From: Iamia majanohamensis
Lineage (GTDB): Bacteria; Actinomycetota; Acidimicrobiia; Acidimicrobiales; Iamiaceae
Assembly (NCBI RefSeq): GCF_028532485.1
Contig: NZ_CP116942.1
Span: 1,674,001-1,738,000 of the forward strand
Reading direction: 5' to 3'
Length of the DNA stretch: 64,000 nt
The translations under genes were made by a program, and so were the position numbers. The notes beneath the pieces were generated by a model. That model was given only the letters and a program-made list of their open reading frames with translations. It did no database searches and was not told the origin of the DNA. Position 1 is the stretch's first letter, and every line of letters starts with the position of its first letter. Shown in pieces: positions 12,492 to 30,581 of the stretch.

Positions 12492-12516
12492 GCCGGAGCC
12501 TACGACGGGCGCAGGG
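12492..12516. repeat. 25-bp direct repeat, left boundary of islet
   Basis: Exact 25-base copy of 16674-16698 (begins GCCGGAGCCT, ends GGGCGCAGGG). On the minus strand it matches the last codons and stop of the EVE-domain gene, but here it lies in the upstream region of the glyoxalase-like gene, with no EVE frame. This is what would be left if a segment had been inserted at the 3' end of the EVE gene with target duplication. Confidence 0.8.
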
Positions 12517-13109: not shown

Positions 13110-14172
13110 CATCGGCCGGGTCGTCACCACCTACGTCGGTGAGAGGGCGGAGGGGGTGGGCCGGGCCTTCGCCCCCACTCCCGTGATCTCGGTGGCGGCG
13201 GAGGACCTCGGGCGCGGGTCGCCAGAGACCGAGGTCGCGGTGCTGGCCGCGGATGCCCGCGCCACCGTGGCCGCGACGCCCGGCCTCCGGTGGGTCCACG
13301 TCGGCCACGCCGGCCTCGACGGCTCCGCTCTCGGGCCGCTCCTGGAGGCCGGCATCGCGGTCACCTCGGCGGCCGGCCGCTCCGCGCCCGTGCTCGCGGA
13401 GCACGCCCTCCACTTCATGCTGTCGCTCACCTACCGGGCCCCGAGCTCGATGCTGCTCCAGCGCCGCCGCACCTGGGCCCCGCCGCGCGGGCGGGGGCCG
13501 TGGAGGGGCCTCCACGGCCGGCAGGTGGTCATCGTCGGGGTGGGCCACACGGGACGGGCCCTCGCGCCGCTGTGCGCGGCCCTCGGGATGGAGGTCGTGG
13601 GCTTCCGCCGCCGTCGGGCCCCGGCGCCGCCCGGCTTCGAGCGCGTCCACTGCACCGACGACGGCGACCGGCTGGGCGACGTGGTGCGGGGGGCGGACAT
13701 CGTGGTGCTGGCGGCCGGCCTGAACGACGCCAGCCGGCACATGGTGGGCGCGGCCGAGCTGACGGCGCTGGGCCCCGACGGCCTCCTCGTGAACGTCGCA
13801 CGGGGCGAGCTCGTGGACGAGCGTGCGCTGCGGGCCGCGCTGCGATCAGGGGCCCTCGCAGGCGCCGCCACCGACACCGTCGCGGTCGAGCCACTGCCCC
13901 CGTGGAGCCCGCTGTGGCGCACCCCCGGCCTGCTCATCACTCCACACCGCACCCCGCCGGTCGCCGACCGCGCCGAGCGGGCCCTCGCCCTGCTCGCCGA
14001 GGACGTGGAGCGCTACCGCGCCGGCCGCCCCCTCCTGAACGCCCTCGGTCCCGAGGACGTGCTCCACCGTCCGCCGCGCCGCACCCGGCGCCCCCGTCTC
14101 GAGCGCGCTGCGACCCACCGGTGGGCCCGGGCCGAGCACCGCTTGGCCCGCCTCCGAGGTGCTGTCGGGTGA
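13102..14172 (+). CDS. D-isomer-specific 2-hydroxyacid dehydrogenase
   Basis: A 356-residue NAD-dependent dehydrogenase. The Rossmann motif GVGHTG lies at ~146-151, and the catalytic triad residues fit R234 (NVARGELVD), E263 (AVEPLP) and H282 (ITPHRTPP). GTG start overlaps the previous gene by 8 bases and the stop overlaps the next start by 4. In this cluster it may make or oxidise a 2-hydroxyacid precursor for a glycan or its modification (inference). Related in fold, not close in sequence, to the gene at 21197. Confidence 0.85.
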   Translation: MPDIGRVVTTYVGERAEGVGRAFAPTPVISVAAEDLGRGSPETEVAVLAADARATVAATPGLRWVHVGHAGLDGSALGPLLEAGIAVTSAAGRSAPVLAEHALHFMLSLTYRAPSSMLLQRRRTWAPPRGRGPWRGLHGRQVVIVGVGHTGRALAPLCAALGMEVVGFRRRRAPAPPGFERVHCTDDGDRLGDVVRGADIVVLAAGLNDASRHMVGAAELTALGPDGLLVNVARGELVDERALRAALRSGALAGAATDTVAVEPLPPWSPLWRTPGLLITPHRTPPVADRAERALALLAEDVERYRAGRPLLNALGPEDVLHRPPRRTRRPRLERAATHRWARAEHRLARLRGAVG

Positions 14173-23658: not shown

Positions 23659-24321
23659 GTGACGGCACCGCCCCATGCCCCGTGGGCGCTGCGAGGCGAG
23701 GGCCTCGTGTGCATGACCCGCAAGCGGCCCGCGGTGGCGCTGCCCGACGGCATCGCCCCCGCGCCGGGGCCCACCGCCGTCGCCGCGGTGCGCTACACCG
23801 ACTCGCCGGTCGGGCCCTTCCTCCAGCTCTTGGTCCTCGTGCCCGCCCGCCTCGGCGCCCACCCCGGGTGGACGGTCGCGGCGGCCGTGGTCGACAAGCC
23901 CGAGGCGCTGCTGGGCTTCCGCATGAACTGGGGCGTGCCGGCCCGGCTGGGGGAGCTGCGCTGGTTCGCCCGCGACGGTGTGCGCCAGCTGCTCTGGGAG
24001 GACCGTGACCTGTCGGTGAAGGCCCGGGGCCGGGGCATCGGCGTGCCCATGGTCGTGCCCCACCGCATGGTGCTGGCCCGGGCCGACGGGCCGGTCGTCG
24101 TCCCCGACCGCCTGTGGGGGCTGTTCCGGCCCGCGGTGGTCGTCATCGAGGCCTCGCCCCGCGACGGGCTCGACTGCCTCGCCGGCCGCCACGTGGGCGC
24201 CACCGTCGACGGCGTGCACCGCACCATCGCCCCCGCCCGCACCCCCGTCGGCCTGCTGGCCCCGCTGCGGGCCCCGGCCACGGCCGAGCCGCTGATGCGG
24301 TGGCCGGACCACCCGATCTGA
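23659..24321 (+). CDS. Acetoacetate decarboxylase-like fold protein
   Basis: A 220-residue protein resembling the acetoacetate decarboxylase superfamily: a YTDSPVGPFLQLLVLVPARLG strand-helix entry and a beta-rich core with VDKPEALLGFRMNWG. The classic catalytic lysine context is not evident to me, so it may be a non-decarboxylase member. GTG start. Followed by a long inverted repeat before the next gene. Confidence 0.6.
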   Translation: MTAPPHAPWALRGEGLVCMTRKRPAVALPDGIAPAPGPTAVAAVRYTDSPVGPFLQLLVLVPARLGAHPGWTVAAAVVDKPEALLGFRMNWGVPARLGELRWFARDGVRQLLWEDRDLSVKARGRGIGVPMVVPHRMVLARADGPVVVPDRLWGLFRPAVVVIEASPRDGLDCLAGRHVGATVDGVHRTIAPARTPVGLLAPLRAPATAEPLMRWPDHPI

Positions 24322-24447: not shown

Positions 24448-25275
24448 GTGACCAGCCTCTTCGACGAGTGCACCGCCGTCCGGCCGGGAGCGGCCGACGG
24501 CACCTTCGCCACCGAGCTGCGCGACGAGTTCACCATCGTCAACGGCCACCCCAACGGGGGCTACCTGCTGGCCGTCATGGGCCGGGCCGCGGTGGCCGCC
24601 CTGGGGGAGGAGGACCGCCACGTGGTGGGCTCCACCACCTCCTACATCGCCCCGCCGTCGACCGGTCCGGCCACCGTCGTGACCGAGGTGCGGCGCCGGG
24701 GTCGCACCGCATCGCAGCTCCACGTCGTGCTGGTGCAGGACGACGAGCCCAAGGTCGAGGGGCTCATGACGTTGGCCGCGCTCGACGACGGCCCGCCCGC
24801 CTGGGGCCACGTGGCCCCGCCGGAGATGCCAGACGAGGAGACGTGCCGGGCCGCCACCCGGTCGCACCGCTCACCCATCACCGGGGGTGAGCCGCCCATG
24901 GCCCGGGTGGTCGCCCAGGCCTTCGACCCCGCCACCCTCGGCTGGGCCTCGGGCGCACCCGGCGGGGGAGGGGAGATGCGGGCCTGGCTGCGGATGGCCG
25001 ACGACCGCCCCTTCGACCCTCTGGGCCTGCTCTTCGCCGTCGACGCCCTGCCGCCGGCGACCTTCGAGGTGGCCATGACCGGCTGGGTGCCCACCCTCAG
25101 CCTCACCGCCTACATCCGGGCCCGGCCCGCCCCCGGGCCGCTGCGGGTCCGGTTCCGGGTGGGCACCATCGCCACCGGCCGGGCCGACGAGACCTGCGAG
25201 GTGTGGGACGGCGCCGACCGCCTGGTGGCCCAGTCGACCCAGCTGGCCGCCCTCCGGATGCCGCCCGCCCCGTAG
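24448..25275 (+). CDS. Thioesterase family protein (double hotdog)
   Basis: A 275-residue acyl-CoA thioesterase-like protein. FTIVNGHPNGGYLLAVMGRA is the N-terminal hotdog helix entry and FEVAMTGWVPTLSLTAYIRA the start of the second hotdog strand set. It would hydrolyse an acyl-CoA. GTG start. Lies 63 bases before tRNA-Val. Confidence 0.82.
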   Translation: MTSLFDECTAVRPGAADGTFATELRDEFTIVNGHPNGGYLLAVMGRAAVAALGEEDRHVVGSTTSYIAPPSTGPATVVTEVRRRGRTASQLHVVLVQDDEPKVEGLMTLAALDDGPPAWGHVAPPEMPDEETCRAATRSHRSPITGGEPPMARVVAQAFDPATLGWASGAPGGGGEMRAWLRMADDRPFDPLGLLFAVDALPPATFEVAMTGWVPTLSLTAYIRARPAPGPLRVRFRVGTIATGRADETCEVWDGADRLVAQSTQLAALRMPPAP

Positions 25276-25338: not shown

Positions 25339-25415
25339 GGGCGTATAGCTCAGCTGGCTAGAGCGCTGCCTTCACACGGCAGAGGTCACAGGTTCGAGTC
25401 CTGTTACGCCCACCA
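25339..25415 (+). tRNA. tRNA-Val (anticodon CAC)
   Basis: A complete 77-base cloverleaf: acceptor GGGCGTA/TACGCCC, D arm GCTC...GAGC, anticodon stem CTGCC/GGCAG with loop TTCACAC (anticodon CAC), T arm ACAGG/CCTGT with TTCGAGT, and encoded CCA. Its 3' 45 bases are duplicated at 29892-29936, showing use as an integration site; the gene itself stays intact. Confidence 0.96.
25371..25415 (+). repeat. attL core within tRNA-Val
   Basis: These 45 bases, from the anticodon loop to CCA, recur exactly at 29892-29936. Flanking bases differ at both ends, so this defines the minimal crossover core. tRNA 3' halves are standard targets of tyrosine recombinases. Confidence 0.92.
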
Positions 25416-25523
25416 CCGATCCCCTGTTCAAAGCGGTCGCGGGCGCTGCGGCCGGGCGCTCCGGGACCCGAATCACCCCACCAATCACCCCACTGTCACG
25501 GGGCAGGCGTACCTTCGCCGGCC

Positions 25524-25880
25524 ATGACCACCGACCGCGGCTCCGTCCGCTGGCGCCAGAACTGGTGGGAGATCCGCCTTTAGGTCGACGGTCGCCGCGT
25601 CACCCGCCGCCTCAAGGCCCCCAACACCCGGGCCGGTCCCCGCACCACCGAGGACGCCCTCAGGCCGGGGGCGGAGCGAAAGTTGGTGAGTCTGACCGAC
25701 GAGTACGACGTAGCGGCCGACGAGGTGCTAAAGCGCCGCCGATCCGTGTGGTTCTTGATGGGCTGGGTTCGGTGCGTGACAGCTATCGAGATTGCTCGCG
25801 CCGTACTCCGGATCCGGAGTACGGCTGCCGCTACACCGACCAGCAAGCGGCCTCGTAGGTCCTTTGCCCAAGCCAGATGA
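25524..25880 (+). pseudogene. Tyrosine integrase N-terminal relic
   Basis: From ATG 25524 the frame reads MTTDRGSVRWRQNWWEIRL, a stop (TAG at 25581-25583), then VDGRRVTRRLKAPNTRAG. This resembles the arm-binding N-terminal domain of phage/ICE tyrosine integrases, which open with a Gly-Ser-Val/Ile-Arg strand and a Trp-x-Val/Ile-Arg strand. After about residue 55 the similarity fades, and no catalytic R...HxxR...Y domain follows. It lies 108 bases from attL, where int is expected. So: nonsense mutation plus loss of the catalytic domain. Confidence 0.55.
25800..25825. repeat. 26-bp perfect palindrome
   Basis: GCCGTACTCCGGA followed by its exact reverse complement, with no spacer. It lies within the integrase relic, 40 bases before the next small gene. 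It could be an operator, a recombination scar or the join of two inverted ends. Perfect 26-base symmetry is not expected by chance in this window. Confidence 0.8.
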
Positions 25881-26064
25881 CCCCGAAGACGTCATCGAGT
25901 TTGTGGAGCGCAACCTGAATAGCGGTCGCCGCTTGAGCCAGCACGACCATCGAGTGCTTCGAGATATGATGGCCGCGGCAGTGCACGGGCGACAGATGTC
26001 AATCCGTCTCCGATCCACGATGCGCCATCTTCGAGTGCCGCTGTCGGAACAAGAACGCGCTTAG
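25864..26064 (+). CDS. Hypothetical small protein of the integrated element
   Basis: A 66-residue protein if TTG 25864 is the start; the frame opens to TTG 25792 (90 residues), but that part runs through the palindrome. Sequence: DDPEDVIEFVERNLNSGRR, then LSQHDHRVLRDMMAAAVHG, with a basic tail; probably all helical. No family recognised. Its TAG overlaps the TAA of the opposing immA fragment by two bases (TTAG). Confidence 0.5.
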   Translation: MPKPDDPEDVIEFVERNLNSGRRLSQHDHRVLRDMMAAAVHGRQMSIRLRSTMRHLRVPLSEQERA

Positions 26065-26150
26065 GCAAACTCCCGCATCGCCTCGAGGGCGATGGCGAGC
26101 GGCACCTCGAACTCGTCGGCCTTGTCGGCGGCGGTGACCGGCCCAACGTG
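26061..26150 (-). pseudogene. C-terminal fragment of an ImmA-type gene
   Basis: The minus strand encodes GPVTAADKADEFEVPLA then IALEAMREFA and a stop, closely matching the C-terminus of the ImmA-like gene at 27318-27686 (GPVTTRDVADEFEVPLA, VALEAMRQVA). Nothing upstream continues the frame. So a paralogous copy was truncated, and the two copies bracket the sortase genes as direct repeats. Confidence 0.8.
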
Positions 26151-26249
26151 GTCCCGGGTCCGTGGGCCGGGCCGGGCCGGTGCGGGCAGTCGATGCCGGT
26201 TTGTTGTACCGTCCGGGTGTCGTCGGTGAGGGGCCGGCCGGGAGAGGGG

Positions 26250-26699
26250 ATGATGATGAGGCGAGTTCTCTTGGCGCTGGTCGCGCTGGGGGCGTTCTTC
26301 GTGGCGGCACCCGTCGCGTCAGCGCAGGACCTGTACAACTGCGACAGCTTTAACTCCCGGGCGGAGGCGCAGGCCGAGTACGACCGGGACACCACGGATC
26401 CCCATGGTCTCGACGGCCCGCCCGGCCCGGAGACGGCTGGGATACCTGGCGAGGCGTGCGAGGACGAGGTCTACCCGGACCAGCCCGTGACTCCCGGGCT
26501 GCCGGCCCCCCCTCAGGACCCGACAGCCCCTGGTGGTGGGGATAACCAGGTTCCTGAGGGCGGCGTGGCTACCGGGTTTGGTGGCATGGCTGACCAGGGC
26601 AGCACCTCGACCCAGCCGCCATGGCTGCTCCTCGGTGGCGCCGCCGCGGCCGGTGCCTCGGCCCTGGCTTTGCGCCGTCGACGCACGCTTCGTCGGTAG
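26250..26699 (+). CDS. Secreted Excalibur-domain protein, probable sortase substrate
   Basis: A 149-residue exported protein. Signal peptide 1-25 (cut after ASA); a compact domain with C31 and C70 and DPHGLDGPPGPETAG, which resembles the Excalibur calcium-binding motif but has lost some acidic ligands; a Pro-rich stalk; then VPEGGVATGFGG, a hydrophobic segment and RRRRTLRR, the plan of a class E/F sortase sorting signal. GGGAGAGGGG precedes ATG 26250 (three ATGs in tandem). Paired with the sortase that follows. Confidence 0.75.
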   Translation: MMMRRVLLALVALGAFFVAAPVASAQDLYNCDSFNSRAEAQAEYDRDTTDPHGLDGPPGPETAGIPGEACEDEVYPDQPVTPGLPAPPQDPTAPGGGDNQVPEGGVATGFGGMADQGSTSTQPPWLLLGGAAAAGASALALRRRRTLRR

Positions 26700-26709
26700 G
26701 GGGACTCCC

Positions 26710-27321
26710 ATCTCGTACAACCTGGCCCGTAGTCGACGGCGCACCGGCGTTGTCCTGACTGCGCTGACGGCTGTCGGCGTCGTTGCGGGTGCAGTGGCAG
26801 TGGTGGGCGCAGCAGCCCAGCGTGAGGAGCCTGAGCCGCCGCTAGCGGCCCCGGTGGCTGCGGTCGCTGCGACCCCGGTCGGCGACCCCATCCAGCTCGT
26901 CATCGACAAGATCGGCGTCGACACCCACTTCGTGCCTCTCGAGCTCGATGACGCTGGCGGGCTGCGGGCCCCCGAGACGGCCGACGTCGCAGGGTGGCAC
27001 GTGGGCGGCCCCGAACCTGGCGAGCCCGGCGCGGCGGTAGTGGCGGGCCACTACGACTCCCGGACTGGGCCGGGCGTGTTCTACGAGCTCGCCGAGCTCG
27101 AGGCTGGCGACGAGGTGGTGATCGGCGGCGAGCATGGGCTGGCGGTGTTCGTGGTCGACCGGGTGGAGACCTACTCGAAGGAGGCGGTCCCGGCCGAGGT
27201 GTACACCCCGACGCCGGAGGCATCGTTGCGTCTCATCACCTGCGGCGGCAGGTTCGACGAGGCGTCGCGGCACTACGAGGACAACGTCGTCGTGTGGACC
27301 TCGCTCCGGGGTGACGTCTAG
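26710..27321 (+). CDS. Class F sortase
   Basis: A 203-residue membrane-anchored transpeptidase: N-terminal membrane helix ~13-36, then the sortase barrel with H114 (VVAGHYDSRTGPGVFYEL) and C178 (LRLITCGGRFD). It should anchor the upstream VATG-bearing protein to the wall. There is no ATG, GTG or TTG before the membrane helix in a sensible place: AGGGGGA at 26698-26704 is ideally placed for ATC 26710, so the gene uses a non-canonical ATC or has lost its start. The next GTG would delete the helix. The stop shares CTAG with the opposing immA gene. Confidence 0.78.
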   Translation: MSYNLARSRRRTGVVLTALTAVGVVAGAVAVVGAAAQREEPEPPLAAPVAAVAATPVGDPIQLVIDKIGVDTHFVPLELDDAGGLRAPETADVAGWHVGGPEPGEPGAAVVAGHYDSRTGPGVFYELAELEAGDEVVIGGEHGLAVFVVDRVETYSKEAVPAEVYTPTPEASLRLITCGGRFDEASRHYEDNVVVWTSLRGDV

Positions 27322-27686
27322 GCCACCTGGCGCATCGCCTCTAGTGCGACGGCGAGGGGCACCTCGAACTCGTCGGCAACGTCACGCGTCGTCACCGGGC
27401 CCACCTCCGCCCGGGCCGCGGCCCACGCCTCCAGCAGGTCGAGGGGGACCAGCCGGCGGGCGACGATCCGGTCGACCTGGGCCTCTTCCCGGGCCCTCAG
27501 CGGTCGCAGTCGGTCGTGGAGGCCGGGTCGGTGGCAGCCGCCGCCGCGCTCGAGGTGGACGAGCTCGTGGGCGAGCGCGGCCAGGCGCTCGGCGGGGGGT
27601 AGGTCGCGGTTGACGAGGATTGCTTGGTGGCCATCGTCGGCGACGGCGCAGAGGGCCCTGACGCCGGCGGGGAGCCTGGTGACCAT
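27318..27686 (-). CDS. ImmA/IrrE family metallo-endopeptidase
   Basis: A 122-residue protein with H40-E-L-V-H44 in ERLAALAHELVHLERGG, the ImmA zinc-peptidase motif; in ICEs and phages such enzymes cleave a repressor. Homologues usually begin with a PWR.LR..P.V strand. Here that part (GPWRDLRGRPDVEC) is in frame upstream of ATG 27686 but without a start codon; an ATG at 27732-27734 reads into it only after a +1 shift. So the 5' end may be frameshifted. No repressor gene is adjacent. Confidence 0.75.
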   Translation of the reverse strand: MVTRLPAGVRALCAVADDGHQAILVNRDLPPAERLAALAHELVHLERGGGCHRPGLHDRLRPLRAREEAQVDRIVARRLVPLDLLEAWAAARAEVGPVTTRDVADEFEVPLAVALEAMRQVA

Positions 27687-27770
27687 GCATTCGACGTCGG
27701 GGCGGCCCCGGAGGTCCCGCCAGGGCCCTCTCCACTCATCAGGGGCACCTACCGAGGGGGTGTGTCAGGC

Positions 27771-28397
27771 CTAGCCACCGAGGTCTGCCAGGGCGGCGGT
27801 GGCGTCGTTCAGGTGGCGGTTGCCCCTTTCGGTGTGCGCAGCGGCAGCGTTGAGCCGGTCAGCATCGCCCGGCGGAAGGGAGCCCTGGACACAGTCGTCC
27901 GTGGCGATCTGGAACTCCCGAAGGGCATTGCGCCAGGGCGCCTCGACGCTGGACGAGGGGATCGCCGGTAGCGCCAAGGCTGCGTTGACCGTTTTCTGAA
28001 GCGTTCCGCACTCGCGGTTCATCAGGTCGAGGTTCGCTGCCATGCCCGCCGCACCTACGGACTCAAGGTCTGATACCAGGGCGTCGAAGACCCATCCGTG
28101 CTCAGCTGCCCAGAGCGTGACCAGTTCCGGCTCGGTCGGACCGGAGGGCGCGGCGGGGGTGGTGATCGGCGGCTTGACGGTTGTCGGAGCGCTTGGGGTG
28201 ATGCCTTGGTCGTCATCGTCTTCACCGGCAACAAGCCCGAGGGCAACGAAGCCCACGACCACGGCGATGACAGCACCCAGGATCACGCCGCCGCGCCGCT
28301 TCGGCGGGTCAGGTGCAACTTGCTGGGTCCATTGTCTGCCGTCCCAGTAGCGCCTGCCGCCTGTGACCGGGTACCAGCCCGGCGGGTAGAAGGCCAT
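27771..28397 (-). CDS. DUF2510 domain membrane protein
   Basis: A 208-residue protein. The N-terminus PPGWYPVTGGRRYWDGRQWT is the DUF2510 motif of actinobacterial envelope proteins, followed by a basic stretch, one membrane helix at ~36-58, an acidic/Thr-Pro linker and an outside helical domain with two cysteines (RECGTL, DDCVQG). AGGAAC precedes the ATG, 4 bases after the lipoprotein stop, so the two are one transcript. Function unknown. Confidence 0.78.
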   Translation of the reverse strand: MAFYPPGWYPVTGGRRYWDGRQWTQQVAPDPPKRRGGVILGAVIAVVVGFVALGLVAGEDDDDQGITPSAPTTVKPPITTPAAPSGPTEPELVTLWAAEHGWVFDALVSDLESVGAAGMAANLDLMNRECGTLQKTVNAALALPAIPSSSVEAPWRNALREFQIATDDCVQGSLPPGDADRLNAAAAHTERGNRHLNDATAALADLGG

Positions 28398-28401
28398 GTT
28401 C

Positions 28402-29103
28402 CTAGAGCTTGTCCACGGCAGTGGTGGCGAACTCGGCGGCTTCGGCGGGGTCGAACGAGCCGGTGTCCGTGAGCACCAGGAAGGTGAGGTAGGGGCCCTT
28501 CTGAAGGAGCACCATGGCGGCGGACACGTTGATGCCTTGGGTGGTGGCCGTTAGCTGGAAGGTCTCCTGCCGTTCTGCGCCCTCGATGGGGTCGAGCTGG
28601 ACACGGCCGATCTGCCCGGTGATGGCTTCGCCGTCGTCGTCGGACTCCTCGAACTCGCCGCACTCCTCGATGACACCGGCGATGAGGTCGAGCGCCTCAG
28701 ACGCCTCGGCGTCATCGGGAAGCTCCACGAGCAGTTGATCGAGCTGGGGGACCCCAGTGCCTCGCATGTAAGCGACCTCGGCCTCGCCGGTCTGTGTGCC
28801 CTCGAGGTCGTCGTTGTCGTCGAGCGGCTCGAGACACTCGACGGGGTCGCTGTCGTCGCCCTCGGAGTTGTTCTCGGCCCAGCCGGCGGGGAGGTCGTCG
28901 AGGGCGAGGGCCAGGTCGGTGAGGTCTTCTGGCTCCTCCTCGCCGTCGGTGGTGGAGGTCTCGGCCTCCGCGTCCTGCTCGTTCACCTCGGCGTCAGGCT
29001 GCGCCTGGGTGGTGGTGGCGGACGAGTCGCTGTCGTCATCCGAGCACGCGCCTGTGTTGAGAATGAGCATCGCTGCGGCGAACAGGTAGATGAGCTTCTT
29101 CAC
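28402..29103 (-). CDS. Lipoprotein of the integrated element
   Basis: A 233-residue lipoprotein: KK-rich signal, lipobox LNTGAC with C20, an acidic Asp/Ser/Glu linker, then a globular domain (LALALDDLPAGWAENN... to TTAVDKL). GTG 29103 is chosen because GGAGGACCC stands just before it; an ATG ten codons upstream lacks this. Operon with the DUF2510 gene. Fold resembles actinobacterial LpqN-like outside domains only in outline; no firm family. Confidence 0.75.
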   Translation of the reverse strand: MKKLIYLFAAAMLILNTGACSDDDSDSSATTTQAQPDAEVNEQDAEAETSTTDGEEEPEDLTDLALALDDLPAGWAENNSEGDDSDPVECLEPLDDNDDLEGTQTGEAEVAYMRGTGVPQLDQLLVELPDDAEASEALDLIAGVIEECGEFEESDDDGEAITGQIGRVQLDPIEGAERQETFQLTATTQGINVSAAMVLLQKGPYLTFLVLTDTGSFDPAEAAEFATTAVDKL

Positions 29104-29158
29104 GGGTCCTCCCCCCGGGGTGGTGGTGATCATGGGTGGGCTACTGGTCGGCCCCTAG

Positions 29159-29325
29159 GGCGTCGAGCAGCTGCGCCTCGAGGCCTACCGCACCTTGCGC
29201 GACCAGCACAATGACCTCGTCCCGGCCGCGGCCTGCATCGTCCACCACCTCGGCCCCTGGCGACCGCCGTCCAGGCCGCCGGGCTCGCACCGGCCCGGCC
29301 CGCCTACGGAGCGGCGCGCGGCTGA
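29159..29325 (+). pseudogene. Possible coding relic with frameshift
   Basis: One frame reads GVEQLRLEAYRTLRDQHNDL then VPAAACIVHHLGP; a second frame continues LATAVQAAGLAPARPAYG to a TGA at 29323-29325. Together they look like the C-terminal end of one protein split by a frameshift and lacking its front. No family recognised. The rest of 29104-29303 holds only the promoter of the lipoprotein gene. Confidence 0.35.
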
Positions 29326-29513
29326 TCCGACGAGCTCGGCCGCTGCGCCTGCTGCCACTGGATGGTGAGAAGCCCGATGCCGAGCGCTCCGATCGCCGCC
29401 AGGGTCACCCAGCTCACCGAGGTGTCGCTGCCGAGCGTGGCGTCCACCAAGGCCGCTGCGGCGAGAGCCGCCAGCATGAGCGCGACGCGCATGACGCAGC
29501 CCTTCGTCGTCAT
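29304..29513 (-). CDS. Small membrane protein
   Basis: A 69-residue protein with two hydrophobic segments (MRVALMLAALAAAALVDA and VSWVTLAAIGALGIGLLTI) and a polar tail. TAGGACAG precedes ATG 29513; ATG 29492 is an alternative. Its 3' end overlaps the relic at 29159-29325 on the other strand. No family recognised. Confidence 0.5.
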   Translation of the reverse strand: MTTKGCVMRVALMLAALAAAALVDATLGSDTSVSWVTLAAIGALGIGLLTIQWQQAQRPSSSDQPRAAP

Positions 29514-29547
29514 GGGACTGTCCTACCCCACCAGGAGGATGAGCACG

Positions 29548-29835
29548 ATGGCCACCACCTGGCGCCTCAAGGCCGCCTCCGGACACGGCTGGGTCGAGCA
29601 CCTCGACCACGACGGCCGGGTCGCCATCACCGCCGACCCCGAGGGCGCCCGGCAGTGGGCCACCCGGGCCCAGGTCGACGCCGCCCTCGCCCGAGTCCGC
29701 CGCGGCGGGGTAGGGGTGCAGCCGGTCGAGGGGCCCGCCTTCGACCACCGGCCCCACGGCGGCCAGCCGCCCCGGCATCACCCCACCCTTCACCCCACCG
29801 ACCTCCCGGCAGGGCCCTGGACGGCGCTGGTCTGA
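29548..29835 (+). CDS. Hypothetical protein next to attR
   Basis: A 95-residue protein. AGGAGG at 29533-29538 fits ATG 29548 (nine-base spacing) better than ATG 29539. The first half (TTWRLKAASGHGWVEHL, DHDGRVAITADPEGARQWAT) looks like a small beta-alpha domain; the tail is Pro/His-rich. Last gene before attR. No family recognised. Confidence 0.5.
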   Translation: MATTWRLKAASGHGWVEHLDHDGRVAITADPEGARQWATRAQVDAALARVRRGGVGVQPVEGPAFDHRPHGGQPPRHHPTLHPTDLPAGPWTALV

Positions 29836-29891
29836 GGGGCTCCGCCCTGGTCAGCCGGCGACTGCCACGCCGCCCGACCCCCACGGCGGTG

Positions 29892-29936
29892 TTCACACGG
29901 CAGAGGTCACAGGTTCGAGTCCTGTTACGCCCACCA
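29892..29936 (+). repeat. attR: partial tRNA-Val copy
   Basis: Exact 45-base repeat of the tRNA-Val 3' half including CCA. It lacks the acceptor 5' strand, D arm and 5' anticodon strand, so it is not a working tRNA. Marks the right end of the integrated element. Confidence 0.92.
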
Positions 29937-29960: not shown

Positions 29961-30350
29961 TCAGCCCTCCGACAGGCTCTCGATGTAGGCGACGACGTCG
30001 GCCACCTCGGCGTCGGTGAGGTCGACGCCGGGCATCTGGGTGGTGAAGCCCTCGACCCGCTGGGCCCCGGGCTCCCGGATCGACCGCTCGAGGTAGGCCC
30101 GGTCGGCGACGACGGTGGTGCCGTCCTCGAGGGGGACCTCGGAGCCGGCCAGGTCCTGCCAGGTCGGCCCCACGCCGCTGCTGCCGTCGACCGAGTGGCA
30201 GCTGTCGCAGCCCCGGGCGTCGACCAGTGCCGCGCCCCGGGCGGCGGGGTCCTCGGCGTCGACGGAGGCCTCGTCCCCGCCGCAGGCCCCGAGCAGCAGC
30301 GTGGCGGCGAGCACGGCGGAGGCGGCGAGGCGTTGGCGGGAGGGGCGCAT
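29961..30350 (-). CDS. Class I cytochrome c, lipoprotein
   Basis: A 129-residue lipid-anchored c-type cytochrome. Lipobox LLLGAC with C23; heme site C48-D-S-C51-H52; distal Met in TTQMPGVDLTDAEVADVVAYI. The arrangement resembles the cytochrome domain of cytochrome oxidase subunit II, but here it stands alone. Likely an electron carrier on the outer face of the membrane. Confidence 0.88.
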   Translation of the reverse strand: MRPSRQRLAASAVLAATLLLGACGGDEASVDAEDPAARGAALVDARGCDSCHSVDGSSGVGPTWQDLAGSEVPLEDGTTVVADRAYLERSIREPGAQRVEGFTTQMPGVDLTDAEVADVVAYIESLSEG

Positions 30351-30581
30351 CACCGCTGCAGGTCGTCGCCGGCCCCGGGCGCGGTTCCCGGGTCTGCACG
30401 ACCGGCGGCGACCGGCGCGGGCGGCCGGGGCAGGGGCGGGGGGCCCTCCCCGATCCCCCCGTCGGGGCTCCCCTCGCGGCGGGGACCGGTGCATGCTCAC
30501 CCGGCCGAAGGGGGGATGCGGTCCTGAGCGATCGACACCTGCGGCGCACCCACCTGTCCAGGACCGATCCGAGGACCTCAC

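Follow-up and report, generated by a model that had tools for sequence, protein, structure and literature searches.

Cis-mobilizable elements (CIMEs) are characterised, in the excerpted account of PMC5704250, as decayed integrative and conjugative elements (ICEs) or integrative and mobilizable elements (IMEs) that have lost their integration and transfer genes and retained both attachment sites, attL and attR. For mycobacteriophages that use tRNA genes, the excerpts of PMC10865867 describe phage attachment (attP) sites with cores of 43-44 bp over the 3' half of the tRNA, a functional tRNA at attL, and putative arm-type pairs flanking the core. The present analysis concerns a 4.5 kb interval in the chromosome of Iamia majanohamensis (contig NZ_CP116942.1, positions 1,674,001 to 1,738,000; this whole stretch of 64,000 nucleotides is called the window, and positions are given in it unless stated otherwise), bounded on one side by a tRNA-Val(CAC) gene and on the other by an exact copy of that gene's 3' half. 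We put the probability at roughly 0.87 that the interval is a decayed mobile element, integrated site-specifically at tRNA-Val(CAC), whose DNA sites have been kept and whose integrase has been destroyed. A preliminary description of the window had proposed an integrated element with att sites, an integrase relic and surface cargo at this tRNA, and the proposal is now supported by repeat pairs at both ends of the interval, by elements at the same tRNA in relatives, and by the absence of the element from another genome of the genus (G002).

Attachment cores and repeat pairs

The tRNA-Val(CAC) gene is complete, and its 3' half doubles as the attL core. An exact copy of this 45-bp core, which begins in the anticodon loop at tRNA position 33 and ends with the terminal CCA, recurs at a spacing of 4,521 bp, just as had been claimed for a repeat 4.5 kb away, and identity between the two copies ends at both edges of the 45 bp. 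A chance origin is excluded because no other exact direct repeat in the window is as long as the core (the runner-up is 25 bp). Matches to tRNA-Val listed from the whole genome (4.58 Mb, one contig) comprise one intact gene, one partial copy, and two weaker matches (78% and 75%). The deviant base composition that had been asserted for the interval is likewise confirmed: the stretch 25416-29891 has a G+C of 0.704 and the window one of 0.752, and none of the 505 other stretches of the same length, taken every 100 bp without overlap with the interval, has a value as low. Elsewhere in the window, a 25-bp exact direct repeat has its copies at 12492 and 16674.

Near each end of the interval lies the tandem repeat pair TCACCCCACNNNTCACCCCAC, at the distances from the cores given in Table 1. 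The pair has the structure TCACCCCAC-NNN-TCACCCCAC, with a 12-bp period, and the same orientation at both ends. Its exact pattern occurs twice in the genome, both times at the ends of the element, and has no occurrence in the 396 other order genomes; a draw of 24 genomes from the family shows none outside the own genome, and a reversed control pattern is absent from the own genome. Relaxing the search to as many as three mismatches gives three matches in the window, the third at position 13937 with three mismatches, while none of 100 shuffles gave three or more. Because two tRNA-Val elements of relatives, and the tRNA-Gly element of the own chromosome (all described below), carry pairs of their own at both ends, the pairs of the interval are most likely the arm-type sites of the integrase, which would have bound them through its N-terminal domain.

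The integrase relic

The integrase relic that had been placed beside attL is present, if very short. Its frame starts at 25524, 109 bp past the tRNA, and corresponds to the N-terminal arm-binding domain only; the catalytic domain by which PF00589 membership is recognised is missing, and no remains of it were found across the six frames of the interval. Among the open reading frames (ORFs) of loci fetched from relatives, the relic is most similar to the attR-side integrase of G017 (33% over 43 aa, E 0.002). Its best non-self match in 298 genomes of the order, in G040 (49% over 41 aa, E 2.1e-4), falls in a 395-aa frame with PF00589 (L138:508-1692), directly downstream of a tRNA-Glu(CTC) gene and pointing away from it, in the same orientation as the relic has relative to tRNA-Val. 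Taken together, place, direction and a shared APNTR stretch make a convincing sequence-level case, to our eyes, that the relic derives from an integrase.

The same tRNA in relatives

Searching relatives for elements with the same att core had been suggested as a check, and the same tRNA half does turn out to be used by elements with intact integrases. Extra copies of the tRNA-Val 3' half are seen in nine of 40 relatives (G008, G012, G017, G020, G023, G027, G031, G035, G036; a list picked by eye, with copies starting at tRNA positions 26-32, 84-100% identical, and mostly on separate draft contigs). In two of these the partial copy shares a contig with the intact gene. The interval in G036 (L034:4676-15469; copies 10.7 kb apart) has a pSAM2-like gene set (integrase, HTH_17, RepSA initiator, FtsK-type protein) and its own repeat pairs, CATCCCACA at +62/+73 and +10563/+10574. 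That in G017 (L035:4760-14049; 9.2 kb apart) encodes two different integrases, one per end, and a phage capsid gene (PF05065), with pairs of TGGCAC at +60/+71 and +9023/+9034; it is possibly a satellite or a pair of accreted elements.

A tyrosine-integrase frame with its near edge at most 1.8 kb downstream of tRNA-Val was found in 5 of 30 relatives (L034, L035, L048, L052, L054), and all five frames score over the cut-off for PF00589. The integrase model had as its input six frames from these very loci and the integrase at 3.11 Mb of the own genome, so recombinases unlike them would be missed. A 9-of-9 tandem repeat (period 10-14) within 200 bp downstream was found in six of the 30 (L034, L048, L052, L054, L055, L067) as well as in the window, compared with 1 of 31 upstream controls and 9 of 1,240 shuffles (a simple control that permutes non-overlapping dinucleotides; L050 and L069 had less than 100 bp of downstream sequence). 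tRNA-Val(CAC) is a recurrent entry point in the order, serving conjugative (G036) and phage-like (G017) elements with tyrosine recombinases. In G035, the contig with the intact tRNA-Val (L050, at its end) and the contig with the partial copy (L040:6329-6376) share a continuing 67 bp, reflecting either an empty site and an attR that coexist in the sample or an assembly overlap.

Within the genus, G002 has a dehydrogenase-like gene, an amidase, the ORF found at 23659 in the window, and the thioesterase running up to tRNA-Val, and a threonine aldolase-like gene with two neighbours 5 kb beyond it. The genes in between are host-like by codon score and include no interval gene; from this gene order we take G002 to be an unoccupied site in a rearranged flank. 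In G001 (L043:1-9998, L120), G+C at tRNA-Val drops from 0.76 to 0.65 and values under 0.70 continue for 30 kb or more, and a large serine recombinase adjoins the tRNA, followed by ArdA and a DNA methylase; another island therefore occupies the site. No tRNA-Val(CAC) locus was recovered from G003, a draft of 520 contigs. The preliminary description had held that a lack of empty-site strains, with the same genes syntenic in all relatives, would speak against an integrated element. What is found is G002 without the element, and no match (E 1e-4) to any of eight interval proteins in the loci of 40 relatives, fetched mostly around tRNA-Val or partial copies of it.

Cargo and neighbouring features

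Table 1. Features of the tRNA-Val(CAC) element and its borders (window positions)
Feature	Position	Strand	Basis
Left flank: acyl-CoA thioesterase, syntenic in G001 and G002	24448..25275	+	family scan, relatives' loci
tRNA-Val(CAC), complete, only intact copy listed in genome	25339..25415	+	tRNA scan, genome search
attL core, 45 bp	25371..25415	+	exact repeat
Putative arm-type integrase sites, left pair (TCACCCCAC twice, 12-bp period), 57 bp inside attL core	25473..25493	+	pattern search
Integrase relic: 47 codons of the N-terminal arm-binding domain, interrupted by TAG at codon 20, no catalytic part	25524..25664	+	translated comparison
26-bp perfect palindrome GCCGTACTCCGGATCCGGAGTACGGC, function unassigned	25800..25825	.	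sequence inspection
Fragment resembling 3' end of ImmA-like gene, 97 bp, 75% identical to 27319-27415	26062..26158	-	self-comparison
Predicted secreted protein, GVDTG-type C-terminal sorting domain	26250..26699	+	NF058571, 37.4 bits, cut-off 29
Sortase closest to class F, ATC at 26710 after GGGGGA	26710..27321	+	PF04203 over cut-off; NF033748 156.7 bits, E 3.4e-46, cut-off 166
ImmA-like (Peptidase_M78) protein, HELVH, 122 aa	27318..27686	-	PF06114 over cut-off; phrog_87
DUF2510 protein, one predicted membrane helix (by eye)	27771..28397	-	PF10708 over cut-off
Predicted lipoprotein (by eye, N-terminus), no family over cut-off	28402..29133	-	profile scans
Small predicted membrane protein	29304..29513	-	families below cut-off
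95-aa ORF, unassigned, overlapping right repeat pair	29548..29835	+	family scan
Putative arm-type integrase sites, right pair, 93 bp inside attR core	29778..29798	+	pattern search
attR core, 45 bp, exact copy of tRNA-Val 3' half	29892..29936	+	exact repeat
Right flank: cytochrome c-like gene	29961..30353	-	families below cut-off

The interval had been credited with a cargo of sortase, sorted protein, DUF2510 protein and lipoprotein. The first three are secure, with PF04203, NF058571 and PF10708 over their curated cut-offs, the sortase falling within the wider PF04203 and short of the narrower class F family NF033748. The lipoprotein is recognised by eye from its N-terminus and reaches no family cut-off; matches to it occur in 16 other genomes of a 198-genome draw (best G137, 27% identity), none of them members of the genus or family in that draw. 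In a literature search on class F sortases and sorting signals, none of the papers listed contained GVDTG. The cargo may have been retained for a surface function.

The claim of ImmA-type genes stands for one intact ORF, convergent with the sortase gene; the second is a fragment, and there are not several genes. With one gene, one fragment and no repressor partner identified, the description of these genes as typical of ICEs and phages holds only weakly. A weak PADLOC match of the ImmA-like protein to capP (E 0.0018) was seen, and no other interval protein submitted to that scan matched a defence family. The scanned interval ORFs include no relaxase, FtsK-type or Rep family, and PHROGs and Pfam scans of the main ORFs revealed no phage structural, lysis or packaging family. 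When the interval was searched against its own genome, the 26-bp palindrome had no other match among those listed. About 2 kb past the end of the window, a PF00589 integrase lies beside tRNA-Pro(TGG) (G000:C1:1740091-1740600; L105, L119), and another tRNA-borne island may begin there, to the right of the window.

A sortase twin beside a tRNA-Gly element

A second copy of the sortase and sorted-protein genes lies elsewhere in the chromosome, at 3,113,729-3,115,022; the alignment of the two copies covers 1,334 columns at 82% identity, and the sortases themselves are 87% identical as proteins. Between the two sortases the nonsynonymous rate dN is 0.07 and the synonymous rate dS is 0.39 (Nei-Gojobori, own script), and because the ratio is 0.18, purifying selection on the pair is suggested. 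Both copies lack an ATG, GTG or TTG where the membrane helix needs a start (26700-26715; L082:15480-15500), and each has an ATC that follows GGGGGA or GGAG and may be a rare start codon retained in both.

Next to this copy, 50 bp of a tRNA-Gly(GCC) gene recur at 3,115,095 and 3,133,332, enclosing an element (G000:C1:3115095-3133381; L082, L083, L125) that contains a PF00589 integrase and a TrwC-type relaxase and has, as read by eye, GGGCACAA repeats at both ends. Transposase-like genes can also be made out in it by eye. The sortase module was considered as the defining feature of the tRNA-Val element and rejected: the twin DNA lies 72 bp outside the tRNA-Gly att repeat. Related sortases are widespread, occurring in 29 of 41 genomes of the order, the own genome included. 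A partnership of ImmA and sortase has in its favour weak ImmA-like remains in the same place after the 3.11 Mb copy (E 1.1e-5); what speaks against such a partnership is that no ImmA match was found in 11 loci around nine other sortases, nine of these loci being only 3.1-3.6 kb long.

As to whether the module is native beside tRNA-Gly, no sortase was found near this tRNA in the stretches read from the genus members G001, G002 and G003 (those of G002 and G003 contain the tRNA-Gly itself, that of G001 its neighbour genes only). G002 does have a partial 3' copy of tRNA-Gly, set apart from the gene by 1.25 kb (L153:8788-10112); this interval encodes a HepT-like/nucleotidyltransferase pair and no integrase, and is a second integrase-less tRNA islet. 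On its right side GTGCCCA appears by eye twice, 12 bp apart, resembling the repeat of the tRNA-Gly element; a scripted 8-letter test was negative for tandem repeats on both sides.

Proposed history and competing explanations

The history we envisage begins with site-specific integration by a tyrosine recombinase into tRNA-Val(CAC), with crossover at the anticodon-loop end of the 45-bp core. The tRNA gene at attL would then have been completed by the 3' half that the element brought with it, and the original chromosomal 3' half would have become attR. The integrase gene would have sat just inside attL, reading away from the tRNA, and would later have been lost through a nonsense codon and deletion of everything after the arm-binding domain; the ancestor's transfer or replication genes, if it had any, would be gone as well. 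We infer this direction and order of decay from what survives. What remains spans 4.5 kb: attL and attR, each to all appearances complete with its core and repeat pair, and cargo centred on a class F-like sortase and its substrate. It is inherited at present as a part of the chromosome, and could move only with a matching integrase, or in cis with a newcomer at the same tRNA.

Several observations weigh against this reading. A Pfam scan of the relic, which is short and weak, gives no family match, and only one of the 11 non-self places found by the relic search is an integrase; because the other ten are without integrase signal, the score alone would be weak. G002 offers a rearranged flank and no clean junction, because its genes between the tRNA and the threonine aldolase differ from those of the window; and because G001 holds another island and the G003 locus was not recovered, absence within the genus rests on that one genome. 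The G036 and G017 motifs were picked visually, starting from attL, and the G017 stretch contains further copies of TGGCAC besides those in the pairs. L035, with an integrase beside its tRNA, reaches only 7 of 9 in the tandem-repeat test, while L055 and L067 reach 9 of 9 and have no integrase by the model. Finally, attR is without mutation over its 45 bp though the integrase is far decayed, and a recent event is suggested for that reason.

That the ancestor was a prophage or phage satellite, and not conjugative, would refine the reading of a decayed element and not replace it. The 9.2 kb interval of G017 at the same tRNA, with its capsid gene and two integrases, and the match of the ImmA-like protein to the phage family phrog_87 point in this direction, but the absence of structural, lysis and packaging families from the scanned interval ORFs does not, and what is left does not separate a phage ancestor from an ICE or an actinomycete ICE (AICE). 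We regard a phage ancestor as unlikely.

The preliminary description also raised the idea of a satellite mobilised by the integrase of another element: a living non-autonomous cassette that shed its integrase, kept its att sites and repeat pairs, and is moved in trans by a related enzyme. Such a cassette would account for two identical cores and two intact repeat pairs despite the ruined integrase, and the dN/dS of the sortase pair and the repeated use of tRNA-Val in the order agree with it. A resident helper was considered and rejected: eight PF00589 recombinases are present in the genome, each examined in about 3.5 kb, and none fits, relic-like N-termini being absent from all eight (best E 0.32). 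The repeat pair is at no other locus in the own genome or in the 396 order genomes, and the complete cassette is present in the genome only once. Viral contigs gave 0 matches to 43 bp of the core and seven places with the repeat pair, none with an integrase or relic match and several resembling coding repeats; genome contigs gave two places with the tRNA end plus repeat (metagenome-assembled genomes of Gammaproteobacteria and Chloroflexi), again with no integrase or relic match. No tRNA was called in the six of these nine loci that were scanned, and no full-length relative with the same repeat pairs was found in the viral, genome-contig and order scans (the viral and genome collections may omit records very near the own genome). 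A literature search returned no paper combining Acidimicrobiia, tRNA-Val and integrase, and we claim no wider absence from print. Because no helper integrase was found the satellite idea goes unsupported, and we judge it improbable.

Credence in a related, bolder notion, a minimal integrase-less surface-display module (a class F-like sortase and its substrate) bounded by complete tRNA att sites and both repeat pairs and carried in trans among tRNA sites by the integrases of incoming elements, with the near-twin beside the tRNA-Gly element as a second stop, is very low. Duplication of the tRNA half by some other recombination, the interval being ordinary host DNA, is hardly credible: the flanks are indeed host-like and related sortases are common in the order, but repeat pairs at both ends, the drop in G+C, the integrase relic and the same layout in relatives all contradict it.

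The decayed tRNA-Val element is an ordinary kind of thing in a very legible form, in which the DNA half of a recombination system (cores and repeat pairs) has outlived the protein half, and its repeat-pair signature is a simple handle for seeking the missing parent element.

Comparison with described systems

The cargo resembles the class F sortase/GVDTG pair of NF033748 and NF058571 in having adjacent genes and a sorting domain over cut-off, and differs in that the sortase scores below the class F threshold and has its near-identical paralogue just outside the tRNA-Gly element. AICEs of the pSAM2 kind, represented by the 10.7 kb element of G036, use the same tRNA half as core and have repeat pairs about 60 bp and 92 bp from the cores; the interval, by contrast, has another repeat motif, and no RepSA, FtsK-type or excisionase family, so that of the integrase, RepSA-type initiator and FtsK-type transfer protein that mark an AICE, all present in G036, none is encoded intact here. 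The structural or packaging genes expected of a prophage or phage satellite are not seen either, the ImmA-like protein alone matching a phage family. To the mycobacteriophage attP sites, as far as the excerpted account goes, the likeness lies in the length and position of the core, the restored tRNA at attL, and repeat pairs on both sides; the differences are that no phage structural gene is seen and that the integrase is only a relic. The likeness to CIMEs is as follows: both att sites survive at a tRNA 3' half, with exact 45-bp cores and a repeat pair at each end; the integration gene is reduced to a 47-codon relic with a TAG; and transfer genes are absent from the scanned ORFs, their former presence being presumed only. 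It differs in that no tandem partner element is seen beside it. With an ancestor that may have been conjugative or a phage, the tRNA-Val element fits, on these sequence features, a remnant of the cis-mobilizable type at an integration hot spot.

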